Positions 5,008 to 23,378 of a stretch of DNA of 64,000 nucleotides are shown in pieces (position 1 is the first letter of the stretch; every line of letters begins with the position of its first letter). The stretch spans positions 1 through 64,000 of the forward strand of contig JAJCXO010000040.1 in assembly GCA_029263395.1 (NCBI GenBank). The letters run 5' to 3'. A program made the translations under genes and the position numbers. Below the pieces are notes generated by a model that worked only from the letters and a program-made list of their open reading frames with translations, did no database searches and was not told where the DNA came from. This DNA comes from Acidobacteriota bacterium (lineage in GTDB: Bacteria; Acidobacteriota; Thermoanaerobaculia; Multivoradales; J023).

Positions 5008-5523
5008 AAAACCACAGATCTTACAGAGCCTTCAAGGCTCTAAGGCGTTAAAGAGTGAGCTTCTATGAACAGGCTAGAAACCTCTAAATATAGAACTATC
5101 CCTGACAACAGAAGTCCAAGGCAGATAACAAAGAATAATGCACGCCGCATGTTGATCTCGAAACCACCACTGTAAAGATCCGAAGAACCTGCTTATCGAC
5201 AATTAACAATATTTAGGCTTGACCCGGTACGTATAAATAGTACAATTTGACTGCCGACGTCAGAAGCGCCTGACACGTTCCCAGGCGTTCTGATTGCTCT
5301 GAGATTCAGCGCTCGCACTTCTTGGTTTCAGCGCCATTGCCGTGCTCGACGTCGCTGACGACGTCCTCTCTTCCACTTCCAGGCTAGCTGCCAGCGGTTG
5401 ATCCAATCGGTCCGCTGACGGGATTCTTGCGGCCAGTCGTTGCCACCCCGCCAGGTGTCCGCGATCCGCCGATAGGTAGTTGTGTGTCCTCAGAACCTCC
5501 AGACGAGCGAGAGAACCGTGAGT
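5008..5523 (+). other. Intergenic region and long leader before the NRPS block
   Basis: About 515 bases without a supportable gene. The first 240 are conspicuously AT-rich against the surrounding DNA. It holds a perfect 17-base palindrome AGAGCCTTcAAGGCTCT (5025-5041), the promoter at 5219-5246, and about 270 bases of leader before the first NRPS start. I see no riboswitch or T-box hallmarks in the leader. Confidence 0.5.
5219..5246 (+). promoter_or_regulatory. Sigma-70-like promoter for the biosynthetic block
   Basis: TTGACC (5219-5224), 16-base spacer, TACAAT (5241-5246); each hexamer differs from consensus at one position. It lies in an AT-rich stretch and points at the NRPS. Predicted transcription start is near 5253, giving a leader of about 270 bases. 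Confidence 0.55.
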
Positions 5524-8500
5524 ATGAAAACCACAAAGGCTTCGCACCAGCCAACCTTGGCTCAGGATCTCTTTGCCCAACAAGCTACCCACCTACCGGA
5601 CGCGATCGCCGCAACATTCGAAGGCTCGACACTCACCTATCGGGATCTCGATCGACAAAGCAACCAGCTAGCGAATTACCTGCGGTCCCTGGGGTGTGGT
5701 CCAGAGCGCATGGTTGGAGTCTTTCTGGATCGGTCACTAGAGATGGTGGTCACCCTATTGGCGATCTTCAAGGCCGGTGGTGGCTACCTACCGCTAGACA
5801 CCCGGTACCCGCGTGACCGTCTCGGGTTGATGCTCGAAGACTGTGCAGGCGATTCCCAGTTGAAGGTGGGGGGCCCTCCCCTCCTCGTCACTTCGCAGCG
5901 CCTCGCCGACAAACTACCCGACAACCCATGTTGCACCGTGTTGCTCGACAGGGACCAAGCTGAGATCGCGTCCAGCAGTGCCGATCCTTTCGACCGTGAC
6001 GCCCCCTACCTAGACCGCGTGACGCCTGGGCACCGCGCCTACGTCATCTTCACTTCTGGCTCGACCGGAAGACCCAAGGGTGTTGTGGTTGAACATCGCG
6101 GTCTAGCCAATCTGATCGCGGCTCAGCAGCAAGTCTTCGACTTAGGGCCCAACTGCCGTGTGTTGCAATTTTCGCCCTATAGCTTCGATGCTTCGTTGTT
6201 CGAGATGGTGATGGCGTTGATGAACGGCGGTACGTTGGTCTTGGCGCCTCAAAGCCGGTTGTTACCCGGACCAGGACTGATCGAGTTGTTGCGCGACGAA
6301 GAAGTCACACATCTGACCATCCCGCCGTCGGCTCTGGCCAAACTGCCCCATGAACCACTGCCCAGCTTGCGGCAACTGATTGTCGCTGGCGAGGCCTGTG
6401 CACCGAGCGTCGTCCAGCGTTGGGGACGCGGACGGCAGTTTTTCAACGCCTACGGACCAACTGAGAGCACCGTGTGGTCAACCGTGGCCGAGTGTAGTGG
6501 CGCAGCCCAAGCACCACCGATCGGACGTCCGATCCACGGTCTGAGCACACACCTACTGACCCCGAACTTCCAGACGGCCGAGGATGGTGAGCTGTGCTTG
6601 GCTGGGGTTGGCCTCGCCCGTGGCTATCAACAACGACCGGCATTAACCGCAAGATCTTTCGTGCCGAATCCGGCGGCCGAGCTTGCTGGCGACCGTCTGT
6701 ACCGCACTGGCGATCGGGCTCGGAAACGATCGACCGGAGAGCTCGATTACCTCGGGCGCATCGACCGCCAAATCAAGCTGCGGGGACAACGTATCGAGTT
6801 GGGGGAGATCGAAAGCCGCCTGGTCAACCATCCCGAAATTGCCGAAAGCGTCGTATTGCTGCAAGGCCAGGACGATCCCGACAAGGCCATGCTTGTAGCC
6901 TACATTGTCCCTCAGCATTGCAGCGTCCCTCAGCATTTCAGCGTCCCTCAGGACCAGGAGCAGATACCGGCCCCCAACGAACTGCGGCGCTGGCTCCGGG
7001 AGGCGCTGCCCGAGATCATGGTCCCCGCCGCCTTCGTGTCGCTGGAAGCCTTCCCGCTCACTGGCAACGGCAAGATCAATCGGTCCGCGTTGCCCGTGGC
7101 AGAGATCTCGCGGGCAACAATGGGTTCGGCTTTCGAGCCACCCCGCGGCGCCACCGAACAGCAGGTGGCGGACGTCTTCAGCCAGCTGCTCGGCGTTGAG
7201 CCGGTAGGACGCTCGGACAACTTCTTCGAGCTCGGCGGTCATTCGCTCTTGGTGACCCGGCTGGTCACCGAGTTGCGCGAGCGTTTCCGAGTGGATCTGC
7301 CCCTCGCGGAGACGTTTACCCGCCTCACTACCAGGCAGCTCGCCGAGATGATCGACAGCGGCGAAACCCTGTCAGAGACGGAAGACGGGCCTAGCGCTGG
7401 TCCTCGGCCAGCCAGTATCCCGCTGTCGTTTGCCCAGGAGCGAGTGTGGTTCGTGCAAACCCTGCATCCGGACGCTGTCGCTTACCACGCCGCCGCCGTG
7501 CTCACCTTCGAAGGCCACTTGGACGTGACGGCGCTCGAGCGCAGCCTGAGCGAGATGGTGGTTCGACACGAAGTACTACGCACCACATTTCCAGCGGTCG
7601 ATGGCGAGCCAGTGCAGAGAATTCACAGCCCTTGGCCGGTCTCCCTCGACCTGCTCGATCTGACCCATCTCGACACTGCAATGCAGGAAGAGGAAATCCA
7701 CCGCCGATTTACCGCCACGATGCGTCAACCGTTCGATATGGCAGCGTTACCGTTGATCCGCTGGCTGTTGGTGCGCCAATCAGAGCAACGCTTTCAATTG
7801 TTCCAGGTGGAGCATCATCTGATCCACGACGGTTGGTCATTCAACGTCTTGTTGGGCGAATTGGTGGCCCTCTACCGGGCTTTCGCCGAAAACCAGCCGG
7901 CGGCGCTGCCGGCACTGCCCTTGCAGTTTGCGGACTTCGCCTGCTGGCAACGACGATGGACGGAAAGCGAGGCGGCGGCGCGTCAACTCACCTATTGGCG
8001 GCAGACGCTCGGCGGCGCCCCCGTTCTCGAGTTACCTCTCGACAAACCTCGCCCACCAGCGCAGAGCTTCGCTGGCGAGGTCCTGAAACTACAGCTCGAC
8101 GCCGAGCAGGCGGATCGGTCACGGGCGCTGGCACAACACCACGACGCCACGATTTATCAAGTACTGCTTTCGACCTTCCTGGTCCTGCTGCACCGGCTGA
8201 CCGGCCAACACGATCTTTCGGTCGGCTCCGGAATTGCCAACCGTCGGTGGCGACAGACCGAAACCCTCGCCGGCATGATCATCAACAATCTGGTGCTACG
8301 CAACCATCTCGCTGGCGACCCGAGCTTCCGTCAGCTGCTGGCGCAGGTCCGTCAGTCGACGTTGTCGGCGTATGCCCACCAGGACGTCCCGTTCGATCGG
8401 GTCGTCGACGCCGTCGATCCAGTACGCGACGCCAGCCGCAACCCCCTGTTCCAAGCAGCGTTCAGCTTCCACGACTCGCCGATCGCCGACCTCGCGTTGC

Positions 8501-10719
8501 CCGACGTCGAGCTCGACGTGGCGGTGGCGTTCAGCAACCGCACGGCCAAGTTCGACCTCAGTGTGATCGGCATCTTGCACCGGGAGCAACGGACCGGGAC
8601 AGCCAGCGCCGAATCGACGTCGGGCGTCATCGACATCCTGTTCGAGTACAACACCGCGCTCTTTCATCGCAGCTCTGTTGAACGATGGATGCGCCTGTAC
8701 CAACGGCTGCTCGACACCGCTGTAGCCAACCCTGAGCTGCCCCTGTCACAGCTCGGGAGTGGGCCGGTCGTACCCCAGCGCAACCGGTCTCAGTCGACGG
8801 TGTTTGAACGCACCGTCGAAAGCCACCACCTGTTGGTCGAATGGAACGATACCGCAACCGATCTGACCAACGAGCAGATGGTGCACCATGTAGTTGAGCA
8901 CTATGCACAGACGGCTGGAGACAACTTGGCGGTTGCGTTGGCTGGATCGATCTTGACGTATGACCAGCTCAACCGTCGATCCAACCGTTTAGCCCATCAG
9001 CTGCGCACTCTCGGAGCGGGGCCGGAATCTCTCATCGCTGTCTTCGCCCGTGGTGGCCCCAACATGGTGGTCGGGCTGCTGGCAGTCCTCAAAGCTGGCG
9101 CTGCGTATGTTCCGATCGACCCGGCCTATCCCGCCGACCGCATCACCTTCGTGCTCGACGACAGCGCGGCTGTGGCCCTGCTCACCACCGAGGAGCTGAA
9201 ACAACACCTACCGTCGTTCGAGGGGCCGGTGATCAGGCTCGATGAAACCCAGGATCGACCACTCGGGGACGACAACCCAGCGGTTTCCATGTCGCCCGAG
9301 AATCTCGCCTATGTGATCTACACCTCGGGTTCTACCGGGCGCCCGAAAGGGGTCCAGATCACCCATCGGGGGCTCGCCAACCTGGTGCGATGGCATCACC
9401 GGACCTACACCGTGACGCCACAAGATCGCGCCACGCAACTTGCCAGTCCCGCATTCGACGCTTCGGTGTGGGAGATCTGGCCCTACCTCACCGCCGGTGC
9501 CAGTGTGCATTTCCCCGGTGAGGAAATCCGGCTTTCCCCGGCCGACCTGCTGCAGTTTTTTGCCGACCAAGCGATCACTCTGAGCTTTGCGCCGACGCCC
9601 CTCGCCGAGGCCATGTTGGACGAACCCTGGCCCGACACCCTACCTTTGCGTGCACTGCTCACCGGCGGTGACCGCTTGCGTCGACGGCCGCCAGAACAAG
9701 CACCACCGTTGATCAACCACTATGGTCCGAGCGAAAACTCAGTGGTAGCAACCTGGGCTCCTGTCGCAACCGGAGCTGGCTCGCCGCCGCCGATCGGCCG
9801 GCCGCTCGACAACGTCCAAGGTTATTTGGTGGATCAAGCCCTGAGGCCGGCGATGCAGGGAGTGGCGGCGGTGCTGACCCTAGGCGGTGTCAGCTTGGGA
9901 CGTGGCTACCTCGCTCGGCCCGCGCTGACGGCAACAAACTTCGTACCTGATCCTTTTGGTCGACAGCCAGGAGCTCGCCTGTATTGGACCGGTGATCGCG
10001 TTCGCCATCTCGCAGGCGGTCAAATCGACTTCCTGGGTCGGGTCGACCATCAGGTCAAGATCCGCGGTTTCCGGATCGAGCTCGGTGAAATTGAGGTGGC
10101 ACTGCAGCGCCATCCGCGGGTCCACGACGCGGTGGTGATTGTCCATGAAGACGACAACAGCCTGGTGGCGTATGTGGTCCCAGTCACCGGCGACATCGAG
10201 GCCTCCGAGCTCGACGAGCATCTGCGGGCCGAGCTACCACCGTACATTGTGCCGCATACTTTCGTCCAAATGTCCGAGCTGCCGTTGGGCGCCCATGGCA
10301 AAGTTGATCGCAAGGCACTGCCCGCCCCTGTTCAAACGAGTGAGCCCCAGGTCGCGCCGCGAGACGCGACCGAACTTCGGATCGCCAACATTTGCGAGCA
10401 GCTACTCGGGCATTTGGTCTCCGGGGTCCGGGATGACTTTTTCCGTTCGGGCGGCAACTCACTGCTCGCCACCAGAGTGCTCTCCAGGGTCAATCAGGCG
10501 TTCGCCGTCCAGGTGCCGCTCGGCGAATTCCTCGCCCAACCCACCGTTGCCGCCCTCGCGCAAGCGGTTAGAAGGCGCCAAGGCCAGAGCTCGGCGGAGC
10601 CTATCGAACGCTTCGCCTGGCGAGACAACGATCGCCTGCTGTCCCAACTCGATGAGCTCTCCGAAAGCGAAGTTGAATCCCTATTGCTCGAAATGCAACA
10701 AGCCGGAGGTGCTGCTTGA
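5524..10719 (+). CDS. Non-ribosomal peptide synthetase, A-T-C-A-T (first two modules)
   Basis: Loads and joins the first two residues. A1 at about residues 13-520 (FTSGSTGRPKG, NAYGPTES, YRTGD, NGKIN); T1 with GGHSLL, Ser574; C at about 633-1090 with intact HHLIHDG; A2 at about 1130-1600 (YTSGSTGRPKG, NHYGPSEN, GKVDRK); T2 GGNSLL, Ser1646; then a charged tail LDELSESEVESLLLEM. Codes read by eye: A1 D-A-F-T-I-A-A-V-W-K, close to PheA-type aromatic codes; A2 D-A-W-F-L-G-H-V-V-K, one change from the common Leu code. No starter C or E domain. ATG 5524 chosen; GTG 5518 and GTG 5482 are in frame. The stop overlaps the next NRPS start by 4 bp. A1 contains an 18-bp triplication at 6907-6960. Confidence 0.93.
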   Translation: MKTTKASHQPTLAQDLFAQQATHLPDAIAATFEGSTLTYRDLDRQSNQLANYLRSLGCGPERMVGVFLDRSLEMVVTLLAIFKAGGGYLPLDTRYPRDRLGLMLEDCAGDSQLKVGGPPLLVTSQRLADKLPDNPCCTVLLDRDQAEIASSSADPFDRDAPYLDRVTPGHRAYVIFTSGSTGRPKGVVVEHRGLANLIAAQQQVFDLGPNCRVLQFSPYSFDASLFEMVMALMNGGTLVLAPQSRLLPGPGLIELLRDEEVTHLTIPPSALAKLPHEPLPSLRQLIVAGEACAPSVVQRWGRGRQFFNAYGPTESTVWSTVAECSGAAQAPPIGRPIHGLSTHLLTPNFQTAEDGELCLAGVGLARGYQQRPALTARSFVPNPAAELAGDRLYRTGDRARKRSTGELDYLGRIDRQIKLRGQRIELGEIESRLVNHPEIAESVVLLQGQDDPDKAMLVAYIVPQHCSVPQHFSVPQDQEQIPAPNELRRWLREALPEIMVPAAFVSLEAFPLTGNGKINRSALPVAEISRATMGSAFEPPRGATEQQVADVFSQLLGVEPVGRSDNFFELGGHSLLVTRLVTELRERFRVDLPLAETFTRLTTRQLAEMIDSGETLSETEDGPSAGPRPASIPLSFAQERVWFVQTLHPDAVAYHAAAVLTFEGHLDVTALERSLSEMVVRHEVLRTTFPAVDGEPVQRIHSPWPVSLDLLDLTHLDTAMQEEEIHRRFTATMRQPFDMAALPLIRWLLVRQSEQRFQLFQVEHHLIHDGWSFNVLLGELVALYRAFAENQPAALPALPLQFADFACWQRRWTESEAAARQLTYWRQTLGGAPVLELPLDKPRPPAQSFAGEVLKLQLDAEQADRSRALAQHHDATIYQVLLSTFLVLLHRLTGQHDLSVGSGIANRRWRQTETLAGMIINNLVLRNHLAGDPSFRQLLAQVRQSTLSAYAHQDVPFDRVVDAVDPVRDASRNPLFQAAFSFHDSPIADLALPDVELDVAVAFSNRTAKFDLSVIGILHREQRTGTASAESTSGVIDILFEYNTALFHRSSVERWMRLYQRLLDTAVANPELPLSQLGSGPVVPQRNRSQSTVFERTVESHHLLVEWNDTATDLTNEQMVHHVVEHYAQTAGDNLAVALAGSILTYDQLNRRSNRLAHQLRTLGAGPESLIAVFARGGPNMVVGLLAVLKAGAAYVPIDPAYPADRITFVLDDSAAVALLTTEELKQHLPSFEGPVIRLDETQDRPLGDDNPAVSMSPENLAYVIYTSGSTGRPKGVQITHRGLANLVRWHHRTYTVTPQDRATQLASPAFDASVWEIWPYLTAGASVHFPGEEIRLSPADLLQFFADQAITLSFAPTPLAEAMLDEPWPDTLPLRALLTGGDRLRRRPPEQAPPLINHYGPSENSVVATWAPVATGAGSPPPIGRPLDNVQGYLVDQALRPAMQGVAAVLTLGGVSLGRGYLARPALTATNFVPDPFGRQPGARLYWTGDRVRHLAGGQIDFLGRVDHQVKIRGFRIELGEIEVALQRHPRVHDAVVIVHEDDNSLVAYVVPVTGDIEASELDEHLRAELPPYIVPHTFVQMSELPLGAHGKVDRKALPAPVQTSEPQVAPRDATELRIANICEQLLGHLVSGVRDDFFRSGGNSLLATRVLSRVNQAFAVQVPLGEFLAQPTVAALAQAVRRRQGQSSAEPIERFAWRDNDRLLSQLDELSESEVESLLLEMQQAGGAA
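6907..6960 (+). repeat. Three 18-bp direct repeats inside A1
   Basis: GTCCCTCAGCATTGCAGC, GTCCCTCAGCATTTCAGC and a diverged third copy GTCCCTCAGGACCAGGAG lie head to tail. They encode VPQHCS-VPQHFS-VPQDQE in the C-terminal A subdomain, between the GEIE and GKIN core motifs. The phase is kept, so this is an in-frame loop expansion. Confidence 0.8.
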
Positions 10720-13700
10720 TAACCCCTGAGAAGAAATCGCCAGAGCCTCAGCCGCTCGAAGAGCGTCGCGCCCTGTTGGCGCGTCTGCTGCGACAGCGCA
10801 CCGCCGAGACCACGTTTGTGCCGTCTTATCCACAGCAACGATTGTGGTTTCTGGACCAACTACAACCCGAAAACCCGGTCTACAACGTGCCACTGGGCTA
10901 TCGCCTGCAAGGCCCGTTGGATGTCTCTGCCTTGCAACACGGGCTGAACGAGATAGTTCGCCGCCACGAGATCTTGCGGACGGTGTTTCGCGAGACCGAT
11001 GCCGGGCCACGGCAAGTGGTGATACCTCCTAGCCTGGTGGCATTGCCGGTGATCGACCTCTCCGACAGCCCCAGACAAGAGGAAGAACGTTGGATCCAAC
11101 AGCAAGCCGGCAGCAGTTTCGACCTCAGCCGTGGCCCCTTACTCCGCCCGCTGCTGATCCGTCGCGGCCCGGCCCAACACACCTTGTTGTTGACCGTCCA
11201 CCATGTGGTTTTCGACGGCTGGTCCGCACGAGTATTGGTGACCGAACTCACCGCGCTTTATGCCGCGTTCACCTCTGGTAACCCTTCTCCCCTGCCGGCG
11301 CTGCCGATTCAGTACGCCGAGTTTGCGGAGTGGCAACATCGTCATCTGGCCGGTGAGACACTCGATCGACTACTGCACTACTGGCGGACGCAGCTCGATG
11401 GGGTGACTGCCATACCTGGCCTGGTCACCGATACTCCTCGGCCCCAAGTGCAGAGTTACCACGGCGATTTCCACACCTTCGAAGTCTCGGCCACGGTGCT
11501 GACTCCACTCGTCGCATTTGGACAGGCGGGCGGCGCAACCCCGTTCATGACCTTGTTGGCAGCTTTCGCGGCGCTGCTCGACCGTTACACCGAAGGCGAC
11601 CAACTGGTGCTAGGCACCCCGATCGCCAACCGCGGACGAGCCGAGCTCGAACCGCTGATCGGCTTTTTTACCAACACCCTGGTGCTGCGTTTGATTACTG
11701 CTGGCAACCCGACGTTTGCCGAGCTGCTAGAGCGGGTCAAACAGACCACCGTGGCAGCCTACGCCCATCAGGATCTTCCGTTCGAGCGCCTGGTGGATGA
11801 GCTCCACCCAGAACGAGACCTGGCTCAGAATCCCTTGTTCCAGGTGCTGTTCAGCTATCGCGAGGGCGAAAACGAAATCCTTCACTTCGACGGCGTGCAG
11901 GGTGAGATGGTGGTCGGCCGCAACAACACTGCAAAGTTTGACCTCTCACTCAGCTTGACCCGCCTCGACGACTGTCTCCACGGTCGTTTGGAGTTCAGCA
12001 CGGACCTCTTCCGTGCCGATACGGTGCGTCGTCTGGCCGCGCAGTTCCAGACCCTCGTCGAGAATCTGGTCGAGGCTCGACAGCGACGCCTGGACGAACT
12101 CCCGATTTTTCCCGAGGCCGAACGTAGGCAGTTGCTGGAATCCTGGAATAAAACCGCCGCTGACTATCCGCGAGATCAGCTAGTCCACCAGCTGATCGAG
12201 GCCAGAGTCGAACCCAATAGCCGTAAAATCGCCTTGGTTTTTGGTCATCGAGAGTTGACCTACGACGGGCTCAATCGTCGCGCCAATCAGCTCGCCCACC
12301 TGCTACGTGGCCACGGCGTTGGACCCGAGGTGGCGGTTGGCGTGTTCTTGGATCGCGGGCCCGAGATGGTGGTCGCGATGCTCGGCATCCTCAAAGCGGG
12401 TGGTGCCTATCTACCCCTCGATCCCGCCTATCCCGAGGATCGCCTGGCGTTTGTACTGCACGACGCGGCGGCACCGGTGATCGTCACCAACAACCACCTG
12501 GCGCGACGATTGGAGCCGGGCTCACCGGCACCCTACTCCGGCACGCTGGTGTGCCTGGACGGTGATCGGGAGAGTCTTGCAGCACAACCATCGGAGAATC
12601 CGTCCTCGACAGCCACCCCCGCCAGCAGCGCTTACCTGATCTACACCTCGGGCTCCACCGGTTTGCCCAAAGGCGTTTGTGTCACCCACCGCACCGTCGT
12701 CAACTTCTTTACCGGCATGGACGGTATCGCTGGAGCAGAGACTGGGGCGGGGGTAGCCTGGCTCGCCGTCACCAGTATCTCGTTCGATATCTCGGTGCTC
12801 GAACTGCTGTGGACCTTGGCCCGCGGCTTCGAAGTAGTGATTCACGACGAGCGGGCGGCCAGCAACATGGCCAAACTCTCGCCCGCCGCCCAGCGACCGA
12901 TCAGCTTCAGTCTGTTCTACTTCGGCGGCGATCCGCGGGTCTCCACCGAAGGCCGCTACCGCTTGCTGCTCGAAGGTGCCCGTTTTGCCGATCAACACGG
13001 CTTCGAGGCGGTGTGGACACCGGAACGCCACTTCCATGATTTTGGTGGGCTATTTCCCAACCCTGCGGTAACCGGCGCCGCCCTGGCCGCGATTACTCAA
13101 AACGTCCAGATCCGCGCCGGCAGTGTGGTATTGCCGCTCCACGAGCCGTTGCGAGTGGCTGAAGAGTGGTCGGTGGTCGACAATCTGAGTGGTGGCCGGG
13201 CCGGCATCTCCTTCGCATCCGGTTGGCACGCCGACGACTTCTCCTTGGCCCCCACCAACTACACCGAGCGCAAGCAGATCATGCTCGACGGCATCGCCGA
13301 GGTCCGGCGACTGTGGCGTGGGGAGACCACCAAGCGCCTCAGTGGCACCGGCCAAGAGGTTGAGCTCGGAATCTATCCACCGCCGGTCCAAGACGAGCTG
13401 CCGGTCTGGCTGACCAGTGCCGGCAATCCCGAAACCTTCCGCATTGCCGGTGAGATGGGTGCCCATGTCCTAACCCACCTGCTGGGCCACGACATTGATC
13501 AATTAGCCGACAAACTCGAGGTCTACCGCCAAGCCTGGCGCCTGCACCAACCCACTGGTGAAGGCTACGTCACGGTGATGCTCCACACCTTTGTCAGTCA
13601 GGATGCTGAAGAAGCACGGGATCTGGCGCGGGGTCCACTATCAGCCTATTTGAAAACCTCGTTCTCACTGCTTGCCAACCTCGGACGCAGCATGGGGCGC

Positions 13701-15263
13701 GAGGTTGATTTCAAGACCCTACCTGCTGCTGAGCTCGACGAGCTGGTCGAACAAGCGGTCGAGCGTTTCGGCCAAACCGCGGCACTGCTTGGCACACCCG
13801 AAGCCTGTGCCGACATGATCGATCGCCTCAAGACGATCGGGATCGATGAAGTGGGCTGCTTGATCGACTTTGGCATCGACGTCGACGTCACCCTGGCTCA
13901 TCTCAGCGATCTCAATGAGGTGCGACAGATCTGTGAGCAGCGGCGGCAACAGGCATTACGCGGCGCTGAACACACCGTGGCCGCCCAGATCCGGCGACGC
14001 CAAATCTCCCATCTTCAGTGCACCCCCTCAATGGCACGCCTCCTGCTGGCGGAAGACGGCGCCCGCGAGAGTATCGGTGAGCTGAGCAAGCTATTGCTCG
14101 GCGGTGAAGCTCTTCCGAGTGAGCTAGCCCGCGAACTGCTCGCTTGCGGCGTTGGTGAGCTTCACAACATGTATGGCCCGACCGAAACCACCGTCTGGTC
14201 GACAACTCAACGGGTGACACCCCACACACCGGTCACTATCGGGCGACCGATCGCCAACACACACATTTATCTCCTTGATCGCCACTTGCGGCCTACCCCC
14301 ACAGGCGTCCCGGGAGAGCTGTGTATCGGAGGCGATGGCGTCACCCGTGGCTATCACCGTCGACCGCGGCAAACCGGCGAGCGCTTCATTCCGGATGCCT
14401 TCGGCAACCGCCACGGTAGTCGGCTCTATCGCACCGGTGACCTCGCTCGCTATCAACCCAGCGGCGAGCTCGAGTTCCTCGGTCGGCTCGATCACCAGGT
14501 CAAGATTCGCGGCTATCGCATCGAGCTGGGCGAGATCGAAACGCTGCTGGCGAGCTTCCCAGGAGTCAACCAAGCCGTGGTCATCGCACGTGATGGACAG
14601 CACGGTGATCGACAGTTGGTCGCCTACTACCTCACCACAGACGGCGCCAACTCAGCAGTCCTGTCGCCTCGTGAGCTTCGCGCCCACCTTCAACGTCAGC
14701 TACCGGATTACATGCTGCCGGCCGCTTACGTCAGGCTGGAGGCTTGGCCGTTGACGCCCAACGGCAAGGTCGACCGCGGCGCTCTTCCCGATCCCGAACA
14801 CGCCACACGGCCGACTACTCGAGCTGAGCTGAAGCCCCCAAGCAACAAATTGGAGAGCACCATCGCCGGGATCTGGCAAGAGACCCTGCAACTCGACCGG
14901 GTCGGCGTCAACGACAACTTCTTCGACCTCGGAGGCAACTCGTTCTCAGTTGTCCACGTGCGGAGTCGCCTACTCCAGGCCTTGAAGCGCGCCCCTACCT
15001 TGGTCGAACTGTTCCGTTATCCAACGGTCGGATCGTTGGCGGAAGCATTGGCTCGGAGTGAGGCACCGTCCTTCGATCAGACACCGTCTCTCAATGGGGC
15101 ACCGGTCCGCAACGGTGCACCGGCCCGCAACGGAGCACCATCTTCAGACGAAGCCAACGAGACTTCGGTCGAATCGGTCGAGAACACCGCACAGAAACGT
15201 CGTCGCGCCCTCAGTCGACGCGGCCACCACGCCCGCCAGCTCAAAGAGCGCCAGGCGAGCTGA
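10716..15263 (+). CDS. Non-ribosomal peptide synthetase, C-A-T with luciferase-like monooxygenase inserted in A
   Basis: Third module. C at about residues 30-458 (HHVVFDG). A starts near 491 and is split: the front part ends after core A4 (FDISVLELLWTLARG), and it resumes at ISHLQCTPSMARLL (about 1096), A5 NMYGPTETTVW, A7 YRTGDLARY, A10 NGKVDR. T at about 1380-1445 (GGNSFS, Ser1409). The 340-residue insert is an FMN-dependent luciferase-like monooxygenase of the MupA/Atu3671 type (TIGR04020). The A code read across the insert, D-I-L-Q-L-G-M-V-W-K, is close to known Gly codes. No TE or reductase; the C-terminal tail has Asn-Gly-Ala-Pro repeats and basic residues. TTG start 10716 overlaps the upstream stop (TTGA) and has GGAGG at good spacing, so the two NRPSs are translationally coupled. 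Confidence 0.92.
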   Translation: MITPEKKSPEPQPLEERRALLARLLRQRTAETTFVPSYPQQRLWFLDQLQPENPVYNVPLGYRLQGPLDVSALQHGLNEIVRRHEILRTVFRETDAGPRQVVIPPSLVALPVIDLSDSPRQEEERWIQQQAGSSFDLSRGPLLRPLLIRRGPAQHTLLLTVHHVVFDGWSARVLVTELTALYAAFTSGNPSPLPALPIQYAEFAEWQHRHLAGETLDRLLHYWRTQLDGVTAIPGLVTDTPRPQVQSYHGDFHTFEVSATVLTPLVAFGQAGGATPFMTLLAAFAALLDRYTEGDQLVLGTPIANRGRAELEPLIGFFTNTLVLRLITAGNPTFAELLERVKQTTVAAYAHQDLPFERLVDELHPERDLAQNPLFQVLFSYREGENEILHFDGVQGEMVVGRNNTAKFDLSLSLTRLDDCLHGRLEFSTDLFRADTVRRLAAQFQTLVENLVEARQRRLDELPIFPEAERRQLLESWNKTAADYPRDQLVHQLIEARVEPNSRKIALVFGHRELTYDGLNRRANQLAHLLRGHGVGPEVAVGVFLDRGPEMVVAMLGILKAGGAYLPLDPAYPEDRLAFVLHDAAAPVIVTNNHLARRLEPGSPAPYSGTLVCLDGDRESLAAQPSENPSSTATPASSAYLIYTSGSTGLPKGVCVTHRTVVNFFTGMDGIAGAETGAGVAWLAVTSISFDISVLELLWTLARGFEVVIHDERAASNMAKLSPAAQRPISFSLFYFGGDPRVSTEGRYRLLLEGARFADQHGFEAVWTPERHFHDFGGLFPNPAVTGAALAAITQNVQIRAGSVVLPLHEPLRVAEEWSVVDNLSGGRAGISFASGWHADDFSLAPTNYTERKQIMLDGIAEVRRLWRGETTKRLSGTGQEVELGIYPPPVQDELPVWLTSAGNPETFRIAGEMGAHVLTHLLGHDIDQLADKLEVYRQAWRLHQPTGEGYVTVMLHTFVSQDAEEARDLARGPLSAYLKTSFSLLANLGRSMGREVDFKTLPAAELDELVEQAVERFGQTAALLGTPEACADMIDRLKTIGIDEVGCLIDFGIDVDVTLAHLSDLNEVRQICEQRRQQALRGAEHTVAAQIRRRQISHLQCTPSMARLLLAEDGARESIGELSKLLLGGEALPSELARELLACGVGELHNMYGPTETTVWSTTQRVTPHTPVTIGRPIANTHIYLLDRHLRPTPTGVPGELCIGGDGVTRGYHRRPRQTGERFIPDAFGNRHGSRLYRTGDLARYQPSGELEFLGRLDHQVKIRGYRIELGEIETLLASFPGVNQAVVIARDGQHGDRQLVAYYLTTDGANSAVLSPRELRAHLQRQLPDYMLPAAYVRLEAWPLTPNGKVDRGALPDPEHATRPTTRAELKPPSNKLESTIAGIWQETLQLDRVGVNDNFFDLGGNSFSVVHVRSRLLQALKRAPTLVELFRYPTVGSLAEALARSEAPSFDQTPSLNGAPVRNGAPARNGAPSSDEANETSVESVENTAQKRRRALSRRGHHARQLKERQAS
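12898..13930 (+). other. Luciferase-like (MupA/Atu3671-type) monooxygenase domain within the NRPS
   Basis: Domain-level annotation inside the second NRPS, about residues 728-1070. The domain opens with ISFSLFYFGGDPR. Typical bacterial-luciferase-fold segments follow: GARFADQHGFEAVWTPERH, RAGSVVLPLHEPLRVAEEW, LSGGRAGISFASGWH and VWLTSAGNPETFRIAGEMG. The family uses FMNH2 and O2 to oxygenate a substrate. Insertion between cores A4 and A5 suggests it acts on the residue bound to this module's T domain, but that is inference. Confidence 0.9.
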
Positions 15264-15294
15264 TTAACCAAGCACTTCCGCCAGGAGATCAGTG

Positions 15295-16251
15295 ATGGCA
15301 TCCCACAGCGGCTCCCCCAAGGGTTCCCAAAAAGGCTCCTCCAACCTGCCGATGGCCTACCTCGACCATACGGTGGTCATGCTCGACGATCAGGCACACC
15401 AGGAGCTTCTGGCCAGTGAGCTCGTACGCCAGCAACTGGGTCGTTTCAAGATCAAAACCGCAACCAGCTCGCTCGCCAACACTTATGAAAGTGCCGGTCT
15501 CGCTGGGGCCCGCACGCTGATGGAGTTCTTCCATGTGGCCGCGCCACCCTTGCCGTCCTTGGTGGGTGCCGTGGTGCTGTCCTTTCCACAACCGGGTTCA
15601 CTCCAGAAAATTCGTCCGTTGCTCGAAACACGTCTCGAACACGGCATCGATTATCAGATGGTCACCCGGACGTTGGTCGAGGATGAGGAGCCGAGGCCTT
15701 GGTACCAGTTGATCCGCCCCAATCTCGGCGAGAACAGTCCTTTCCTCTTGATGTTGGCCGAGGTCACCGCCGACTACTTCGAGCATCTGGGAGCGTCCTC
15801 GGGACCTGGCGGCGAGCTCCATCGTCACAACTACCTCACCGCTGCCCTAGGCAGTGATCACCGCCCCGACTACTACCTCGGTGACGTTTCTGAAGTGACC
15901 ATCAATCTCGAAGCGCAGCGGGCGGAAATTCTCGGCACGGCGCTCGTCACCCTGGGCTACACCGCCGAGTCCAACGGCGTTGGAATCTGTTATCGAGGTC
16001 CAGACATCACCCTGCGTGTGGTCAGCTCGACAACGCTTCGGGAAGGCATCATCGCCATCGCAACCTCCCTCCAACGCCCTAAAGCTGCCCCGATCGACTA
16101 TCGCTTCGGCACCACAACCAAGCTGTCCTTCGGCTCCCCCAACACTGGTGTGTGGAGCTTCGAACCACCGTTACCTCACGCGCCGCTCCAGCCCTCATCT
16201 GGGCTCGCCACTGCAGCCCAGTCCGAGACCTCTCCGGCGAGCGAAGCCTAA
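15295..16251 (+). CDS. VOC-like (possible DUF5829) protein, unknown function
   Basis: 318 residues from ATG 15295 with AGGAG upstream; a GTG one codon earlier is possible. It lies 31 bases after the Gly-module NRPS and 77 bases before the P450, so it is probably co-transcribed and specific to the pathway. The N-terminal part (LDHTVVMLDDQAHQELLASE...) and the central acidic and aromatic segments resemble glyoxalase/VOC-fold proteins annotated DUF5829; this assignment is tentative. No signal peptide; the C-terminus is Pro/Ala/Ser-rich. It might bind a pathway intermediate or metal. I cannot assign a reaction. Confidence 0.6.
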   Translation: MASHSGSPKGSQKGSSNLPMAYLDHTVVMLDDQAHQELLASELVRQQLGRFKIKTATSSLANTYESAGLAGARTLMEFFHVAAPPLPSLVGAVVLSFPQPGSLQKIRPLLETRLEHGIDYQMVTRTLVEDEEPRPWYQLIRPNLGENSPFLLMLAEVTADYFEHLGASSGPGGELHRHNYLTAALGSDHRPDYYLGDVSEVTINLEAQRAEILGTALVTLGYTAESNGVGICYRGPDITLRVVSSTTLREGIIAIATSLQRPKAAPIDYRFGTTTKLSFGSPNTGVWSFEPPLPHAPLQPSSGLATAAQSETSPASEA

Positions 16252-16328: not shown

Positions 16329-17648
16329 ATGGCCCCCGAAACCAACATCATTGACTACGAAACCACCGCACCAACAGCGGGTCGTTTGGCGCCTTTCGAT
16401 CCCAAAACGCCTGAATTGTTGCTCGATCCTTACCCGATGTTCCATCGGTATCGCGCCTGCGAGCCGGTGCATTGGGGATTGTCCGGGTTAGCCGGGTATG
16501 CGGGTGCCTGGTACATCTTTCGCCATGCCGATGCGGTCGCTATCCTGCGAGACAATCGCTTCGGTAAGGAACGGCGCGGGGTCAAGTTCAGTAGCGGTGG
16601 TCAAAGGACTCCCGGTAGTCCAGCGGCACCGCCGATCCCGGAAGCCGCCAAGCCTTTCTTCATGACCGCCCGCAACTGGGTGGTCCACCGCGATCCTCCG
16701 AGTCACACCCGCCTGCGGTCGTTGATGAACGCCGCCTTCACTCACCGTGCCGTTGAACGTATGCGGCCACGGGTCGAAGAGATGGTTCACATGTTGCTCG
16801 ATCGAGTCGCGGACCGCGGCGAGATGGACTTCATTGCTGATTTCGCCTACCCCTTGCCGGTGTTGGTGATCACCGAGATGCTGGGACTGCCGGACGAGGA
16901 TCGGCCACGCTTTGAACGCTGGTCCCAGGACCTCCAGGCCATCGACCTCAAAACCACCGAAGAGACCTGGCGCCAAGCGAGCCACTCGATCGAAGAGGCT
17001 AAAGCCACCCTCTATGACCTCATCGCCGAGCGGCGGTGTCAGCCCCGCGACGACCTGATCAGTGATCTAGTCCAACTCCAGGGTCAAGGTGCCGAGATCT
17101 CCGATGAAGAGCTGGTCGCCAACATCTTCTTTCTCTTCTTTGCCGGGGCGGGTCTCGAAACTACCGTCGGCTTCATCGGCAACGGTGCCTTGGCCCTGCT
17201 GCAACACCCCGAGCAGATGAGTTTGCTAACCAAAGCTCTAGTGGCCAATGACACCAGCTTGATGGCAACCGCGGTCGACGAGATGCTGCGGTTCGAGAGC
17301 CCGGTACAGATGACCAACCGCACGGCCTTCGAAGACGTCGAGATCGGCGGCCAAACGATCCGCAGCGGAGATTCCGTTCTGGTGGTGCTCGGTGCCACCA
17401 ACCGCGACCCAGAAGCCTTTCCCGATCCCGATCGATTCGACATCAACCGGCACCAAAACCGCCACCACGCCTTCGGGTTGGGGCCCCATTACTGCCTCGG
17501 CGCGCCGCTCGGGCGGCTCGAGGGTGAGGTCGCCTTCCGAATCCTACTTGAACGCCTGCCTAACTTGGCGCTGCGTGCCGACGCACTACCTCAATGGGGA
17601 AACAATGCCGCAATCCGCAGTCTCAAATCGCTCCCGGTCTCGTTCTGA
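16329..17648 (+). CDS. Cytochrome P450 (bacterial class I type)
   Basis: 439-residue soluble P450. I-helix motif FFAGAGLETTVGF, K-helix ExxR in EMLRFESPVQ, and heme loop HAFGLGPHYCLGAPLG with the thiolate Cys at residue 389. ATG 16329 is preceded by GAAAGGAA at correct spacing. Being between the NRPS and PKS genes on the same strand, it is expected to oxidise the peptide or a carrier-bound intermediate. No ferredoxin or ferredoxin reductase gene is present in the block, so electrons must come from elsewhere. It resembles CYP107-like enzymes by eye only. Confidence 0.92.
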   Translation: MAPETNIIDYETTAPTAGRLAPFDPKTPELLLDPYPMFHRYRACEPVHWGLSGLAGYAGAWYIFRHADAVAILRDNRFGKERRGVKFSSGGQRTPGSPAAPPIPEAAKPFFMTARNWVVHRDPPSHTRLRSLMNAAFTHRAVERMRPRVEEMVHMLLDRVADRGEMDFIADFAYPLPVLVITEMLGLPDEDRPRFERWSQDLQAIDLKTTEETWRQASHSIEEAKATLYDLIAERRCQPRDDLISDLVQLQGQGAEISDEELVANIFFLFFAGAGLETTVGFIGNGALALLQHPEQMSLLTKALVANDTSLMATAVDEMLRFESPVQMTNRTAFEDVEIGGQTIRSGDSVLVVLGATNRDPEAFPDPDRFDINRHQNRHHAFGLGPHYCLGAPLGRLEGEVAFRILLERLPNLALRADALPQWGNNAAIRSLKSLPVSF

Positions 17649-17669
17649 GATCGAGCCTTGGAGCCCTGC

Positions 17670-20600
17670 ATGAGCCAATCGATATCCGACGACTCGGTTG
17701 AAAGTATCGCCGTTATCGGCATGGCCGGGCGTTTCCCAGGGGCTGCGACAACCGCGCAACTGTGGCACAACCTCGACGCGGGGGTGGAGTCGGTCTCGCG
17801 GTTCTCGGACGAGGAGTTGCTCGACGCCGGTATCGATCCTGAAACGGTAGCCGACCCGGACTACGTGAAGGCCTCCGCCACAATCGAGCAGGCCGATCAT
17901 TGGGATGCCCCGTTCTTCGGCTACAGCCCTCAAGAGGCAGAGATCCTCGATCCCCAGCACCGCCTGTTCCTAGAGGTGGCGTGGGAGACCTTGGAAGATG
18001 CCGGCTACGACCCGGCGCGCTACGACGGCTCGGTCGGAGTCTTTGCCGGCTGCTTCATGAACAAATATCTGCCGACCAATCTTCATACCAACCAAAGATT
18101 CCTCGACTCCCCTTACGCCTTTTTCGCCCGGGTCTTCAACGACAAGGACTTCTTGGCGACCCGTGCGTCCTACCTGTTCAACTTACGAGGCCCTAGTCTG
18201 ACCATCCAAACCGCGTGTTCGACTTCCTTGGTTGCCACCCACATGGCCTGCCTCAGTCTGATGAGTTATGACTGTGACATGGCACTGGTCGGCGGCGCAG
18301 CACTCAATGTGCCACTGAAATCGGGTTACCCGGTGATCGACGGCGGGTTGTTCACCGGTGAAGGCCATTGCCGACCGTTCGACGCTCGGGCTCAGGGGAC
18401 AATTCCCGGCTACGGGGCGGCGGCGATTGCCCTGTGTCGCTTGCCGGACGCGATCGCTAGTCGCGACAACATCCGGGCGATCATCCGCGGCACTGCGATC
18501 AATAATGATGGGTCCTCGAAAATCGGTTTCACGGCGCCGAGCGTCGATGCTCAGGCAGCGGTGATCAAGGCGGCACAATCCTATGCCGGCGTCGACGCGG
18601 AAACCATCGGCTACGTGGAGGCTCACGGCACCGGCACCTCGGTGGGTGACCCGATCGAAGTTGCGGGTCTGAGCACCGCATTTGCGACCAAAAAGCGAGG
18701 TTTCTGCGCTCTCGGCTCGGTCAAAGCAAACATCGGCCATCTCGATGCCGCCTCTGGCGTCGCTGGTCTGATCAAGGCGGTGTTGGCCCTCGAACATCGA
18801 AAGATTCCGCCCTTGATCAACTTCGAACATCCCAATCCCGACCTCGAGCTCGAGAAAACACCGTTCTACATCAACACCACATCGCTCGACTGGCCACGCA
18901 ACAGCGCCCCACGGCGGGCCGGCGTCAGCTCACTCGGCGTCGGCGGCACCAACGCCCACGCCGTCTTGGAAGAGGCGCCCGAGCGTGCAGCTTCTTCCCC
19001 GAGTCGAACTTGGCAACTGTTGACAATCTCGGCAAAAACCCGATCTGCCGTCGACGCCGCTACCCATCAACTAGCTGATCATCTGGAAGCTCACCCCGGG
19101 CTTCGCCTCGCCGATGTCGCCTATACCCTGCAGGCTGGTCGCAAACAATTCGAGTTGCGGCGCACTTTGGCGTGCAGCGGGCCAACCGAAGCGATCCACG
19201 GCTTACGTCAGTTGCGGCGCCCTGCATCGGCGGTGGCTGCAACCCGGCGCCCGGTGGTCTTCATGTTCGGCGGTGGCGGCACTCAATATCCCGACATGGG
19301 GCTCGAGCTCTATCGCACCGAGACGCGCTTTCGCGACGACATCGATCGTTGCGCTCAACATCTCGAACCTCTTTTGCAGCTCGATTTACGCCACTACCTC
19401 TACCCGAGTCTGCACCCTGCCGGCGCCGACATCAGCCACCGTCCACCGCACGTGCTCGCCGCGCTGGTCGCGACACAATATGCCTTGGCTCAACTGTGGA
19501 TGTCCTGGGGCCTGGTGCCCCAGGCGCTGATCGGGCACAGCATGGGCGAATACCTGGCGGCCTGCCTATCGGGGGTGTTCACTCTCGAACAAACCCTCGC
19601 CTTGGCAGTCCGACGAGGTCAGCTTTTCGAAGCCGTGCCATCGGGTGCCATGTTGATCGTCCAACTTTCCGAGAGCGATGTTCAGTTGCACCTCGGCGAT
19701 CAGCTATCGGTAGCCGCGGTGAACGCGCCGTCGGTTTGTGTGGTCTCGGGCGCCACCGCCGCCATCAACACCTTGGAGGCCACCCTGCGGGCCAGCGACA
19801 TCGAGGTACGTCCGGTGCACATCGCGGTCGCCAGCCATTCCTTGCTGATGGACCCGGTGGCTCCCGAGCTTGCTGACTTCGTCTCTCAGATGTCACTGTC
19901 GGCCCCGACGATCCCATTCCTTTCGGGCGTCACCGGCACTTGGATCCGTCCTGACGAGGCCACTGACCCAGCCTATTGGGCGCGGCATCTGCGGCAAACA
20001 GTTCGTTTTGCCGACGGTGTCCGTGAACTGATGAGCAACTCCGATCGGGTGTTGCTGGAAGTTGGTCCCGGCAACGCTCTGTGTACCCTCGCCGGCCTGC
20101 AAGGCTTACAACCCGTGCCGGTAGCCCTACCGACCCTGCGTCACCCTCAAGATCCGCAGTCCGACCAAGGTTTCCTCACCACAACCCTCGGCAAACTGTG
20201 GCAGGCCGGAGTCGCCATCGATTGGGACAGCTACCACGCTCCGGACAAGCCCGGTCGGGTCTCGCTACCAACCTATCCCTTCGAACGCCGCAAATTCTGG
20301 ATCGAGGCCGGGCGCCCGAGCCGGGGCGAGCCGGTCTCTACCGGTGATCTACTGACTCGACCGGAACCTCCGAACGGCACCGATCCACACCTGGCTATGG
20401 ACGCAGCTGGAGGAAGTCTCAGTAGTGAAGATCTCGAGAACGAGAACTACCGTCGACCGCGGACCGAACGCGAGCAGCAGCTGGCGGTGATCTGGCAACA
20501 GCTATTGGGCGTCGAACGAGTCAGCGTCGACGACGACTTCTTCGAGCTTGGCGGCCATTCCCTGCTGGCGACCCAGATGATGAAGAAGCTACGCCGGTCG

Positions 20601-21950
20601 TTCGGTTTCAAACTGAATCTGCGGACTCTCTTCGAAGCGCCAACCATTGCTCAACTAGCACCGCTCACTCAGGGTGAGGGGCTCGAGGCAGCCACCTCAG
20701 CGATTGATTTTGACGCTGAGGTGATGCTCGATCCGGCGATCGAACCCGCTGGGCTGCCAGCCCCCGTCAGCACGCCACCGCGCACCGTGTTGCTCACCGG
20801 TGCCACCGGTTTTCTCGGCGGCTTCTTGGCCCGTGAGCTGCTGCACCAAACCTCCGCCGAGGTGATCTGTCTGGTGCGAGCTGAAGATCCGGCATCTGGC
20901 TGGGATCGCCTACGCCACAACCTGGAGTCCTATGGCATCGACGAACCACAGGCCGAGGCCCGGCTGGTAGCGCTGCCTGGAGATCTGTCACAGCCTCTGC
21001 TCGGCCTCTCCGAGACCACGTTTGATCAATTGGCCCAAGAGGTCGACGTGATTTATCACTGCGGTGCCTGGGTGAACTTCGCCCGGCCGTACAAAGCCCT
21101 CAAAGCGACCAATGTCTCGGGGACCGAAGAAATCTTGCGGCTCGCGACCCGTCGACGCCTCAAGCCGGTCCACCACATCTCAACTCTTGCTGTCTTGGCA
21201 GGTGCGGTCGCCGCCAGAGTTGATGAAGTTCTGGAGGACGATGGGCTGCCGGCCGCCATCGGCCACGATACCGGCTACAGCCAAAGTAAATGGGTGGCCG
21301 AGAAGATGCTGGCGCTGGCCCGTCAGCGAGGCCTACCGATCGCCGTCTATCGACCTAGCGTGGTGTTAGGAGACAGCGTCTCGGGAGCCTCCAACGAAGA
21401 CGACTACCTGACCAAGATGATCCAGGGCTGTGTCCAGCTCGGGCTGGCGCCACGGCGTGACTATCCCTTGACCGTTGCCACCGTCGACTTCGTCAGTGCG
21501 GCGGTCGTAGCCCTTTCCCTGGATCAGCAATCCTGGGGTCAGAGCTTCCATGTCATCGACCCGGATCCGCTGCCATGGGATCAGATCTTCGCCCACCTAC
21601 GCAGCTTGGGATACGACGTTCCGAGTATCGACTATGAGCAGTGGAAGCGCGCCTTGAGCCAACGCATCGATCAGGCTCAGGACAACGCTCTCGCCCCGTT
21701 GGCGGCGTTGCTGGCCGACGATCCCGACCGGCAGATGCCGAAATTCGATTGCCGCAATCTTTTGGCTGGGCTCGAACCGACGGCGGTGACTCGCCCAGCG
21801 ATCGACCTCGATCTGTTTGCGACCTTAGCCGACTATTTTGTCACCAACGGCTGGCTGCCGAAGCCGAAGAGCCCCACCAGATCGGCAGACGAGACGCTTG
21901 CAAGATTGCAACGTGATCCTGAATCGACCCATTCGGCGAGGCCAATCTAG
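17670..21950 (+). CDS. Type I polyketide synthase with terminal thioester reductase (KS-AT-ACP-TR)
   Basis: Adds one C2 unit and releases the chain. KS at about residues 10-430 with TACSTS (Cys183), EAHGTGTSVGDP and VKANIGH; AT at about 527-855 with GHSMGEY (Ser624) and VASHSLLM at the specificity site; ACP with GGHSLL (Ser964); TR at about 1040-1390 with GATGFLGG (NADPH loop) and TGYSQSK (Tyr-x3-Lys). No KR, DH, ER or methyltransferase, so the beta-carbonyl should remain. The TR is the only release domain in the assembly line and should give an aldehyde, or an alcohol after a second reduction. Start ATG 17670 has GGAG six bases upstream. Confidence 0.93.
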   Translation: MSQSISDDSVESIAVIGMAGRFPGAATTAQLWHNLDAGVESVSRFSDEELLDAGIDPETVADPDYVKASATIEQADHWDAPFFGYSPQEAEILDPQHRLFLEVAWETLEDAGYDPARYDGSVGVFAGCFMNKYLPTNLHTNQRFLDSPYAFFARVFNDKDFLATRASYLFNLRGPSLTIQTACSTSLVATHMACLSLMSYDCDMALVGGAALNVPLKSGYPVIDGGLFTGEGHCRPFDARAQGTIPGYGAAAIALCRLPDAIASRDNIRAIIRGTAINNDGSSKIGFTAPSVDAQAAVIKAAQSYAGVDAETIGYVEAHGTGTSVGDPIEVAGLSTAFATKKRGFCALGSVKANIGHLDAASGVAGLIKAVLALEHRKIPPLINFEHPNPDLELEKTPFYINTTSLDWPRNSAPRRAGVSSLGVGGTNAHAVLEEAPERAASSPSRTWQLLTISAKTRSAVDAATHQLADHLEAHPGLRLADVAYTLQAGRKQFELRRTLACSGPTEAIHGLRQLRRPASAVAATRRPVVFMFGGGGTQYPDMGLELYRTETRFRDDIDRCAQHLEPLLQLDLRHYLYPSLHPAGADISHRPPHVLAALVATQYALAQLWMSWGLVPQALIGHSMGEYLAACLSGVFTLEQTLALAVRRGQLFEAVPSGAMLIVQLSESDVQLHLGDQLSVAAVNAPSVCVVSGATAAINTLEATLRASDIEVRPVHIAVASHSLLMDPVAPELADFVSQMSLSAPTIPFLSGVTGTWIRPDEATDPAYWARHLRQTVRFADGVRELMSNSDRVLLEVGPGNALCTLAGLQGLQPVPVALPTLRHPQDPQSDQGFLTTTLGKLWQAGVAIDWDSYHAPDKPGRVSLPTYPFERRKFWIEAGRPSRGEPVSTGDLLTRPEPPNGTDPHLAMDAAGGSLSSEDLENENYRRPRTEREQQLAVIWQQLLGVERVSVDDDFFELGGHSLLATQMMKKLRRSFGFKLNLRTLFEAPTIAQLAPLTQGEGLEAATSAIDFDAEVMLDPAIEPAGLPAPVSTPPRTVLLTGATGFLGGFLARELLHQTSAEVICLVRAEDPASGWDRLRHNLESYGIDEPQAEARLVALPGDLSQPLLGLSETTFDQLAQEVDVIYHCGAWVNFARPYKALKATNVSGTEEILRLATRRRLKPVHHISTLAVLAGAVAARVDEVLEDDGLPAAIGHDTGYSQSKWVAEKMLALARQRGLPIAVYRPSVVLGDSVSGASNEDDYLTKMIQGCVQLGLAPRRDYPLTVATVDFVSAAVVALSLDQQSWGQSFHVIDPDPLPWDQIFAHLRSLGYDVPSIDYEQWKRALSQRIDQAQDNALAPLAALLADDPDRQMPKFDCRNLLAGLEPTAVTRPAIDLDLFATLADYFVTNGWLPKPKSPTRSADETLARLQRDPESTHSARPI

Positions 21951-21977: not shown

Positions 21978-23378
21978 GTGGTAGCAACAATTCCCGCCAA
22001 CGGTTTCCGTACGTTCAGCGTGATCTGGCTCGGTCAGCTGGTGTCTCTGATCGGGTCAGGCCTGACCTCGTTTGCCCTTGGCGTCTGGGTCTATCAGAAG
22101 ACCGGCTCCGCCACCCACTTCGCCTTCATTTCACTGGCGACCACCTTCCCTATCGTAGCCCTGTCGCTGATCTCTGGTCCATTGGTTGATCGCTGGGATC
22201 GACGCAAGGTGTTGATTGCTAGCGACTGCGTTGCGGCCGGCCCAACCGTCGTGGTTGCTCTGTTGTTGATGAGCGGCCGGTTAGAGATCTGGCATATTTA
22301 TCTGGCGGTAGGAATCAGCTCCTCGTCCACTGCTTTTCAATGGCCGGCCTACACTGCCACAACCACCCTCTTGGTTCCCAAACAGCACCTGGCACGGGCG
22401 GCTGGCATGGTCGAGTTCTCACGCGCCGGAGCCATGATCTTGTCGCCGATGCTGGCCGGCGTGCTGATGGTTTACATCGACATCTGGGGCATCATCCTGA
22501 TCGACACGCTGACCTTCCTGGCCGCAATCTCGACGCTCCTGGTGATGCGCGTTCCGACCCCTGAACGGAGTCGCGAGGGTGCGCAGCCCCAAAGCTCGTT
22601 GTGGCAAGAGGCCAGGTTCGGCTGGGTCTACCTGCTGGCCCGTCCGGGGCTGGTCCGGCTTCTGGCCTACTTCTCGTTCATGAACTTCTCTGTTGCCTTG
22701 GTGCTCGGCCTGACGACACCGATGATGCTGTCGTTCACCACCGCGGCGGTGCTTGGCATGACCTTGTCAGTTGGCGCCCTAGGCATGCTGTTGGGCGGTG
22801 TGGTGTTGAGCGTGTGGGGTGGGCCGAACCTCAAAGTCCATGGGATCCTAGGCTTCGGCTTGCTGTTGGGAGCCGGACTGGCGCTGGCCGGCATGCATCC
22901 CGCTCCGCTGCTCATCACCTTCGGATTGTTCTGGTACAACTTCTCCATACCGATCATCAACGGCTGTAGCCAAGCAATCTGGCAAAGCAAGATACCGCCC
23001 GAGCTTCAGGGTCGGGTCTTCGCCATTCGCCGGATGTTCGCCACCTTCACCGCGCCCCTCGGCTATCTGGTGGCCGGACCTTTGGCTGACCGACTCTTCG
23101 AACCCATGCTGGCGACGGGGGGGGCCCTCGCCGGAAGTTTCGGGCAGCTCATAGGTGTCGGGCCAGGTCGTGGGATCGGCCTGATCTTCATTCTGCAAGG
23201 CCTGTTGTCGATTGGTGTGGCCGGCGTCGGTTTCCTGTCGCCACGCCTGATGCGGGTCGAGGCCGAGTTACCCGACGCTGTCGACGCTGTCGACGCCAAC
23301 CCTGCCAACGAACCACCTGACGACGCGACGTCTGATACGGCAAGTCTCGGGCCCGAAGCCGTGTCCGCAAAAGCATGA
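21978..23378 (+). CDS. MFS transporter, EntS-like exporter
   Basis: 466 residues with about 12 membrane spans and an MFS motif A variant (GPLVDRWDRRK) after span 2. GTG 21978 has GAGGAG at 21966-21971. It starts 27 bases after the PKS stop, and MFS proteins of this type are usual self-resistance or export genes in NRPS clusters, so it probably exports the product. The C-terminal 45 residues are hydrophilic with a short Val-Asp-Ala repeat. Contains an 8-G run at 23117-23124. Confidence 0.88.
   Translation: MVATIPANGFRTFSVIWLGQLVSLIGSGLTSFALGVWVYQKTGSATHFAFISLATTFPIVALSLISGPLVDRWDRRKVLIASDCVAAGPTVVVALLLMSGRLEIWHIYLAVGISSSSTAFQWPAYTATTTLLVPKQHLARAAGMVEFSRAGAMILSPMLAGVLMVYIDIWGIILIDTLTFLAAISTLLVMRVPTPERSREGAQPQSSLWQEARFGWVYLLARPGLVRLLAYFSFMNFSVALVLGLTTPMMLSFTTAAVLGMTLSVGALGMLLGGVVLSVWGGPNLKVHGILGFGLLLGAGLALAGMHPAPLLITFGLFWYNFSIPIINGCSQAIWQSKIPPELQGRVFAIRRMFATFTAPLGYLVAGPLADRLFEPMLATGGALAGSFGQLIGVGPGRGIGLIFILQGLLSIGVAGVGFLSPRLMRVEAELPDAVDAVDANPANEPPDDATSDTASLGPEAVSAKA

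Follow-up and report, generated by a model that had tools for sequence, protein, structure and literature searches.

Several described assembly lines combine a glycine unit with a flavin oxygenase. In MtaG (myxothiazol) and MelG (melithiazol), a monooxygenase inserted between motifs a4 and a5 of a glycine adenylation (A) domain hydroxylates the alpha carbon of glycyl; the N-C bond then breaks, and of the two fragments, a peptide amide and a glyoxylyl thioester, the thioester is hydrolysed by a TE (PMC10204066, PMC11342130). In the solanimycin protein SolF, the insertion point of the flavin oxygenase (FMO) is between a8 and a9; the alpha-hydroxyglycine survives in the product (solanimycin B), and elongation continues (PMC10204066). 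A survey of A-domain codes located every MOX module in a Gly-activating domain, and all four MOX-bearing Gly domains read DILQLGMIWK (PMC12283262). In necroxime-type lines, an oxygenase domain turns the glycine that primes the line into an oxime (PMC7318616). PuwE-like TIGR04020 domains in PKS/NRPS hybrids have been assigned acyl-chain hydroxylation alpha to the thioester, the PuwE OX domain being flanked by one PKS module and one NRPS module (PMC4219810).

The window (the whole stretch of 64,000 nucleotides analysed here) encodes a protein, NRPS2, in which a luciferase-like monooxygenase (LLM) is spliced into a glycine-type A domain. The features of the cluster are as follows:

5482..10719, + strand: NRPS1, A-T-C-A-T (Pfam, codes, motifs)
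10716..15263, + strand: NRPS2, C-A(N)-LLM-A(C)-T
12168..12899, + strand: Gly A domain, N-terminal part through A4 (FDISVLELLWTL), plus linker (motifs, Pfam, AF2)
12906..13925, + strand: embedded FMN-type luciferase-like monooxygenase, TIGR04020 (494.7 bits; 6ket PuwE OX structure match)
13941..14786, + strand: Gly A domain, C-terminal part A5-A10, NMYGPTETTVW ... PNGKVDR (motifs, NCBIfam, AF2)
14859..15050, + strand: T (PCP) domain predicted to bear the Gly unit (PF00550, residues 1382-1445)
15292..16251, + strand: DUF5829 protein, predicted VOC fold (Pfam; AF2; VIA)
16329..17648, + strand: cytochrome P450, heme Cys motif FGLGPHYCLG (Pfam, motifs)
17658..21950, + strand: PKS KS-AT-T with terminal thioester reductase, TIGR01746 (NCBIfam, Pfam; motifs intact)
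21978..23378, + strand: MFS exporter, cluster end (Pfam; 55% identity in G002, 51% in L031)
24638..27112, + strand: MacB/FtsX-type permease, adjoining the cluster (Pfam; 51% identity in G002)

The NRPS2 ORF, whose TTG start overlaps the stop of NRPS1 (TTGA), encodes 1515 residues. By Pfam and NCBIfam, a condensation domain (residues 37-474, motif HHVVFDG intact) is followed by a first AMP-binding part (495-715), the remainder of the A domain from residue 1083, AMP-binding_C (1273-1351) and PP-binding (1382-1445, motif GGNS intact). The AMP-binding match ends at 715, and that of TIGR01733 restarts at 1083, which corresponds to profile position 199 of 409. The LLM therefore enters after A4 (FDISVLELL) and before A5 (NMYGPTETTVW); motifs, the comparison of split domains and the structural model all place it at the a4/a5 site of MtaG and MelG, a likeness drawn from the published descriptions of those proteins. 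A chance or frame artefact was ruled out, as the ORF is single and open, HMM and structure agree, the HMM E-value is 1e-148, and 72 other split domains have the same arrangement.

TIGR04020 matches NRPS2 residues 731-1070 over its full profile (1-341 of 341) at 494.7 bits against a curated cut-off of 244.45, and Bac_luciferase (PF00296) matches the insert as well (E=1.4e-47). We modelled the A-LLM-A unit (bases 12168-14786, 873 residues) with AF2 from an alignment of 59 split domains, obtaining a mean pLDDT of 89.5 and a pTM of 0.76. Solved A domains superpose across the insert (VIA-align; for 7ywk_B, 391 residues within model 1..774 align at Z 52.9 and rmsd 1.6 A) and, since this superposition spans both sides, the A fold is predicted to close around the LLM. 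The closest solved LLM structure is the PuwE OX domain, 6ket, which has the same fold as the LLM part of the model (Foldseek: 51% identity and 2.1 A, with a TM of 0.93 normalised to the target), although in PuwE it does not lie inside an A domain; PuwE OX shares 50 of the 52 LLM residues that do not vary among the 59 split domains. The insert thus combines a score above the cut-off with an LLM barrel bearing the conserved family residues; in the model both folds, A domain and LLM barrel, appear intact, and family membership predicts an FMN-dependent oxygenase. We rejected a bacterial luciferase proper: the position that reads EHHF in an alkanal monooxygenase alpha chain is aligned with ERHF in both the NRPS2 LLM and PuwE, so that the first His, which we take to be the luciferase catalytic His (LuxA His44), is replaced by Arg and luciferase chemistry is not expected.

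The ten-letter code of the split A domain, DILQLGMVWK, differs from the published MOX code DILQLGMIWK by one conservative change. It is a glycine-type code, from which loading of glycine is predicted. Code positions were set by motif and by alignment to the window's A domain, not structurally to GrsA. Read in this way, the pattern DI[LV]QxG[MLV][IV]W occurs in all 73 split domains compared (that of the window and 72 from relatives and GTDB genomes), among loci that were picked by LLM similarity as the best 80 of at least 593. Common descent of a single A-LLM cassette could equally give this universal pairing.

A first-pass annotation of this DNA had placed an LLM of the TIGR04020 (MupA/Atu3671) class at 12898-13930, within about 10 bases of the match found here, and had described an A domain split after A4 and resuming before A5, a Gly-like code, and a PKS placed to extend the product. 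Class, site, code and the KS-AT-T-reductase next in assembly order were all borne out. Two of the checks it had proposed, a structure prediction of both folds and a survey of Gly codes against the LLM insert, also came out in its favor: both folds are present in the model, with matches to 6ket and 7ywk_B, and the pairing extends to every domain surveyed, having been in print for four (PMC12283262).

Upstream of NRPS2, NRPS1 has the codes DAFTIAAVWK (first A) and DAWFLGHVVK (second A), which, from general knowledge of published codes, we take to be aromatic-type and Leu-like, respectively; Pfam detected no C or formyl domain ahead of its first A. Downstream, the P450 likely starts at 16329, within a longer ORF that begins at 16152. 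The C, A, T, KS, AT, reductase and P450 motifs of the cluster are all intact, and the scanned cluster genes include none for a flavin reductase. The same gene set is found, at 50-59% identity and with the order of P450 and DUF5829 swapped, in a genome of the same family (G002), where a MacB-type permease also lies next to the cluster. Elsewhere in the window, genes for EF-P, EpmA and EpmB, the EF-P beta-lysylation set, lie together at 37191-39901.

The DUF5829 protein is predicted to have a vicinal-oxygen-chelate (VOC) fold. Its AF2 model (pLDDT 89.6, pTM 0.89) contains repeated beta-alpha-beta-beta-beta modules matching VOC structures, with VIA Z scores of 15.5 for 3p8a, about 12-13 for extradiol dioxygenases, and about 11-12 for HPPD and hydroxymandelate synthase; extradiol dioxygenases and HPPD superpose at 3.4-4.6 A. 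Numbered by the first row of the alignment, His6, Glu58 and Glu137 do not vary across eight DUF5829 sequences, a pattern compatible with a putative glyoxalase-like metal site. Among 40 relatives, the family occurs only in G000, G002 and G003. As we found no mention of DUF5829 or PF19147 in the open-licence literature searched, where its function is undescribed, the protein here gains a predicted fold and a pathway context.

Ten actinobacterial loci (L013-L019, L021, L031 and L042) share with the window the arrangement A-T-C-A-T / C-A(LLM)-T / KS-AT(-T-Red), with 60-64% identity to its LLM. All ten have the split LLM module and a KS following it, eight have the reductase, and seven have DUF5829. 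The P450 and MFS genes, both present in the window, adjoin the core in L031 only, and L015 and L021, unlike the window, have neither reductase nor DUF5829. Sequence comparison thus points to a conserved cluster family, NRPS1 - NRPS2(LLM) - P450/DUF5829 - KS-AT-T-reductase - MFS, found whole in one relative genome and as a core in the ten actinobacterial loci. A quick tree of the LLM domains groups the window with G002 and the ten loci in one clade (SH-aLRT 99), for which gene exchange between phyla is one possible reading. L015 (Actinokineospora) and L021 (Amycolatopsis) have the first code DVQFHGLVKK, where the window has DAFTIAAVWK. In L021, the PKS is followed by a protein resembling a 3-hydroxyacyl-CoA dehydrogenase, which might serve to make a special extender unit.

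The order of domains, the site of the split, both folds, the motifs, the Gly-type code and the conservation of the cluster can be read from sequence and model, and against the described systems they give a mixed picture. NRPS2 resembles MtaG and MelG in the a4/a5 insertion into a Gly A domain. However, those modules are terminal, being followed by a TE, and their chain is cleaved to an amide, whereas the NRPS2 ORF stops after T without a TE and the next carrier-line enzyme is a KS-AT-T-reductase PKS. This argues that NRPS2 shares their module type but not their terminating role; a terminal MtaG-like module with a TE and amide release was ruled out, since no TE follows T. With SolF it has in common a Gly module bearing a flavin oxygenase and a P450 in the same cluster, but the SolF insertion is at a8/a9 and is followed by NRPS elongation. 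As in necroxime-type oxime-forming loading modules, an oxygenase would act on a glycine unit that feeds a PKS; unlike those primer modules, NRPS2 is internal and has a C domain.

In the route that we propose, NRPS1 would join an aromatic-type residue to a Leu-like one, as read from its codes, and hold the dipeptide as a thioester whose N-terminus is free. In NRPS2, the split A domain would load glycine onto the T domain of the same protein and the C domain would form dipeptidyl-Gly-S-T, whose glycyl C-alpha the LLM, using O2 and FMNH2 from a reductase elsewhere in the cell, would hydroxylate on the T domain. The resulting N-acyl carbinolamide (an alpha-hydroxyglycyl thioester) would pass uncleaved to the KS of the PKS, which would extend the chain once, with malonyl by default. 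From the domain order, the terminal reductase would release a beta-keto aldehyde or its cyclised form, to be tailored by the P450 and the VOC-fold DUF5829 protein. Hydroxylation at C-alpha is carried over from the literature on the same architecture; the timing, the retention of the carbinolamide, the product and the roles of P450 and DUF5829 are what we infer.

We consider C-alpha hydroxylation of dipeptidyl-glycyl-S-T, with the carbinolamide retained and extended by the PKS, the most likely outcome (probability about 0.55), because NRPS2, with its C domain, sits inside the line and a conserved PKS-reductase comes after it instead of a TE. Retention rather than cleavage is favored by the KS that follows the LLM module in all ten actinobacterial loci and in G002, together with the lack of a TE. 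The overall reading must be weighed against four points: (i) MtaG and MelG, in the literature consulted the only lines with exactly this insertion site and described chemistry, cleave the carbinolamide; (ii) in the retained example, SolF, the FMO is inserted at a8/a9 instead of a4/a5 (PMC10204066); (iii) the sequence is also compatible with N-hydroxylation; and (iv) the cluster genes scanned include no flavin reductase. The first-pass annotation had held the outcome to be unpredictable from sequence, which appears too cautious given that the same a4/a5 insertion in the MtaG and MelG Gly modules hydroxylates C-alpha (PMC10204066, PMC11342130). The conserved cluster would hand an oxygenated glycine to a PKS with reductive release, and would provide a test of whether carbinolamides survive and are elongated by a KS. 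More tentatively, an N-acyl hemiaminal beta-keto aldehyde, formed via the carbinolamide or an N-acyl imine and the reducing PKS module, might be cyclised with the help of DUF5829 and P450 into a new peptide-alkaloid scaffold, the family being shared by actinobacteria and the phylum of this genome.

Scission of the C-N bond after C-alpha hydroxylation, as in myxothiazol biosynthesis, would release the dipeptide amide and leave glyoxylyl-S-T, with the PKS either idle or extending the glyoxylyl unit. Insertion site and code class are those of MtaG and MelG, for which cleavage is accepted (PMC10204066, PMC11342130), but a TE follows in those pathways and none does here. What comes next in the window, as in G002 and most actinobacterial loci, is a conserved KS-AT-T-reductase whose motifs are intact, so that we regard this outcome as unlikely. 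Similarly improbable is hydroxylation of the glycyl-S-T nitrogen (or oxidation to an oxime or imine) before condensation, which would give an N-hydroxy-glycyl (hydroxamate) unit. Although we found no sequence feature in NRPS2 that distinguishes N- from C-oxidation, and necroxime-type lines do convert a glycine primer into an oxime by means of an oxygenase domain (PMC7318616), such modules act on a free-amine primer, whereas the C domain (HHVVFDG) and two upstream modules of this line imply that the glycine amine is acylated in the finished NRPS2 chain. For the same reason, an HHxxxDG motif and two modules upstream in place of a starter position with a free amine, NRPS2 was rejected as an oxime-forming Gly loading module. 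Action of the LLM off its own module, for example Baeyer-Villiger oxidation or alpha-hydroxylation of the beta-keto chain after PKS extension, reactions of the sort that LLM domains carry out in PKS lines, has a precedent in the activity assigned to PuwE-like domains (PMC4219810) but is very unlikely, as in all 73 domains compared the insert is paired with an A domain of Gly type, which suggests that glycyl is what the LLM acts on, even if inherited linkage within a cassette could give the same pattern.

With regard to distribution, scanning GTDB genomes with the LLM alignment yielded at least 593 stretches, and the analysis covers the best 80 loci among them. In most of these 80 the LLM sits between A4 and A5, and split modules were found in Actinomycetota, Myxococcota, Pseudomonadota, Acidobacteriota, Chloroflexota, Cyanobacteriota, Verrucomicrobiota, Planctomycetota and others. 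Within the same best 80 of at least 593 loci, the next ORF after the split module encodes a KS in 35 of 67 cases and a C domain in 10, the rest being unassigned by this mechanical count. Judging from these phyla and counts, the split Gly module appears to be widespread, with a PKS acceptor as its commonest neighbor. The architecture, already known from MtaG, MelG and related pathways, is consequently not a novelty. Only the gene cluster around it is apparently undescribed; we found no description of it in the open-licence literature, and it may be new.

The genome of the window contains two further TIGR04020 domains. One (G000:C138:96584-97597; L005) lies in another split Gly module, with the code DILQMGMIW and adjoining PKS genes; the other (G000:C10:58138-59160; L004) is not part of an A domain but precedes a C domain within a frame of 6972 residues. 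In Comamonas sp. KCTC 72670 (L067/L079), two split modules are nearly identical on the tree to those of myxobacterial L023, L032 and L035/L091, which could be explained by either a recent transfer or an assembly that is mixed or mislabelled. Finally, the split Gly-LLM module at L027:7349-12286 opens with a formyltransferase (PF00551/PF02911), giving FT-A(LLM)-T followed by KS-AT-KR-DH-T-TE. By blastp to L027, FT-A(LLM)-T occurs in 22 more loci (L034, L037, L039, L040, L041, L045, L051, L054, L060, L066, L069-L072, L075, L077, L079, L080, L082, L085, L088 and L091), a set that, by its domain content, is predicted to represent a two-gene formyl-glycine starter line present in many phyla.
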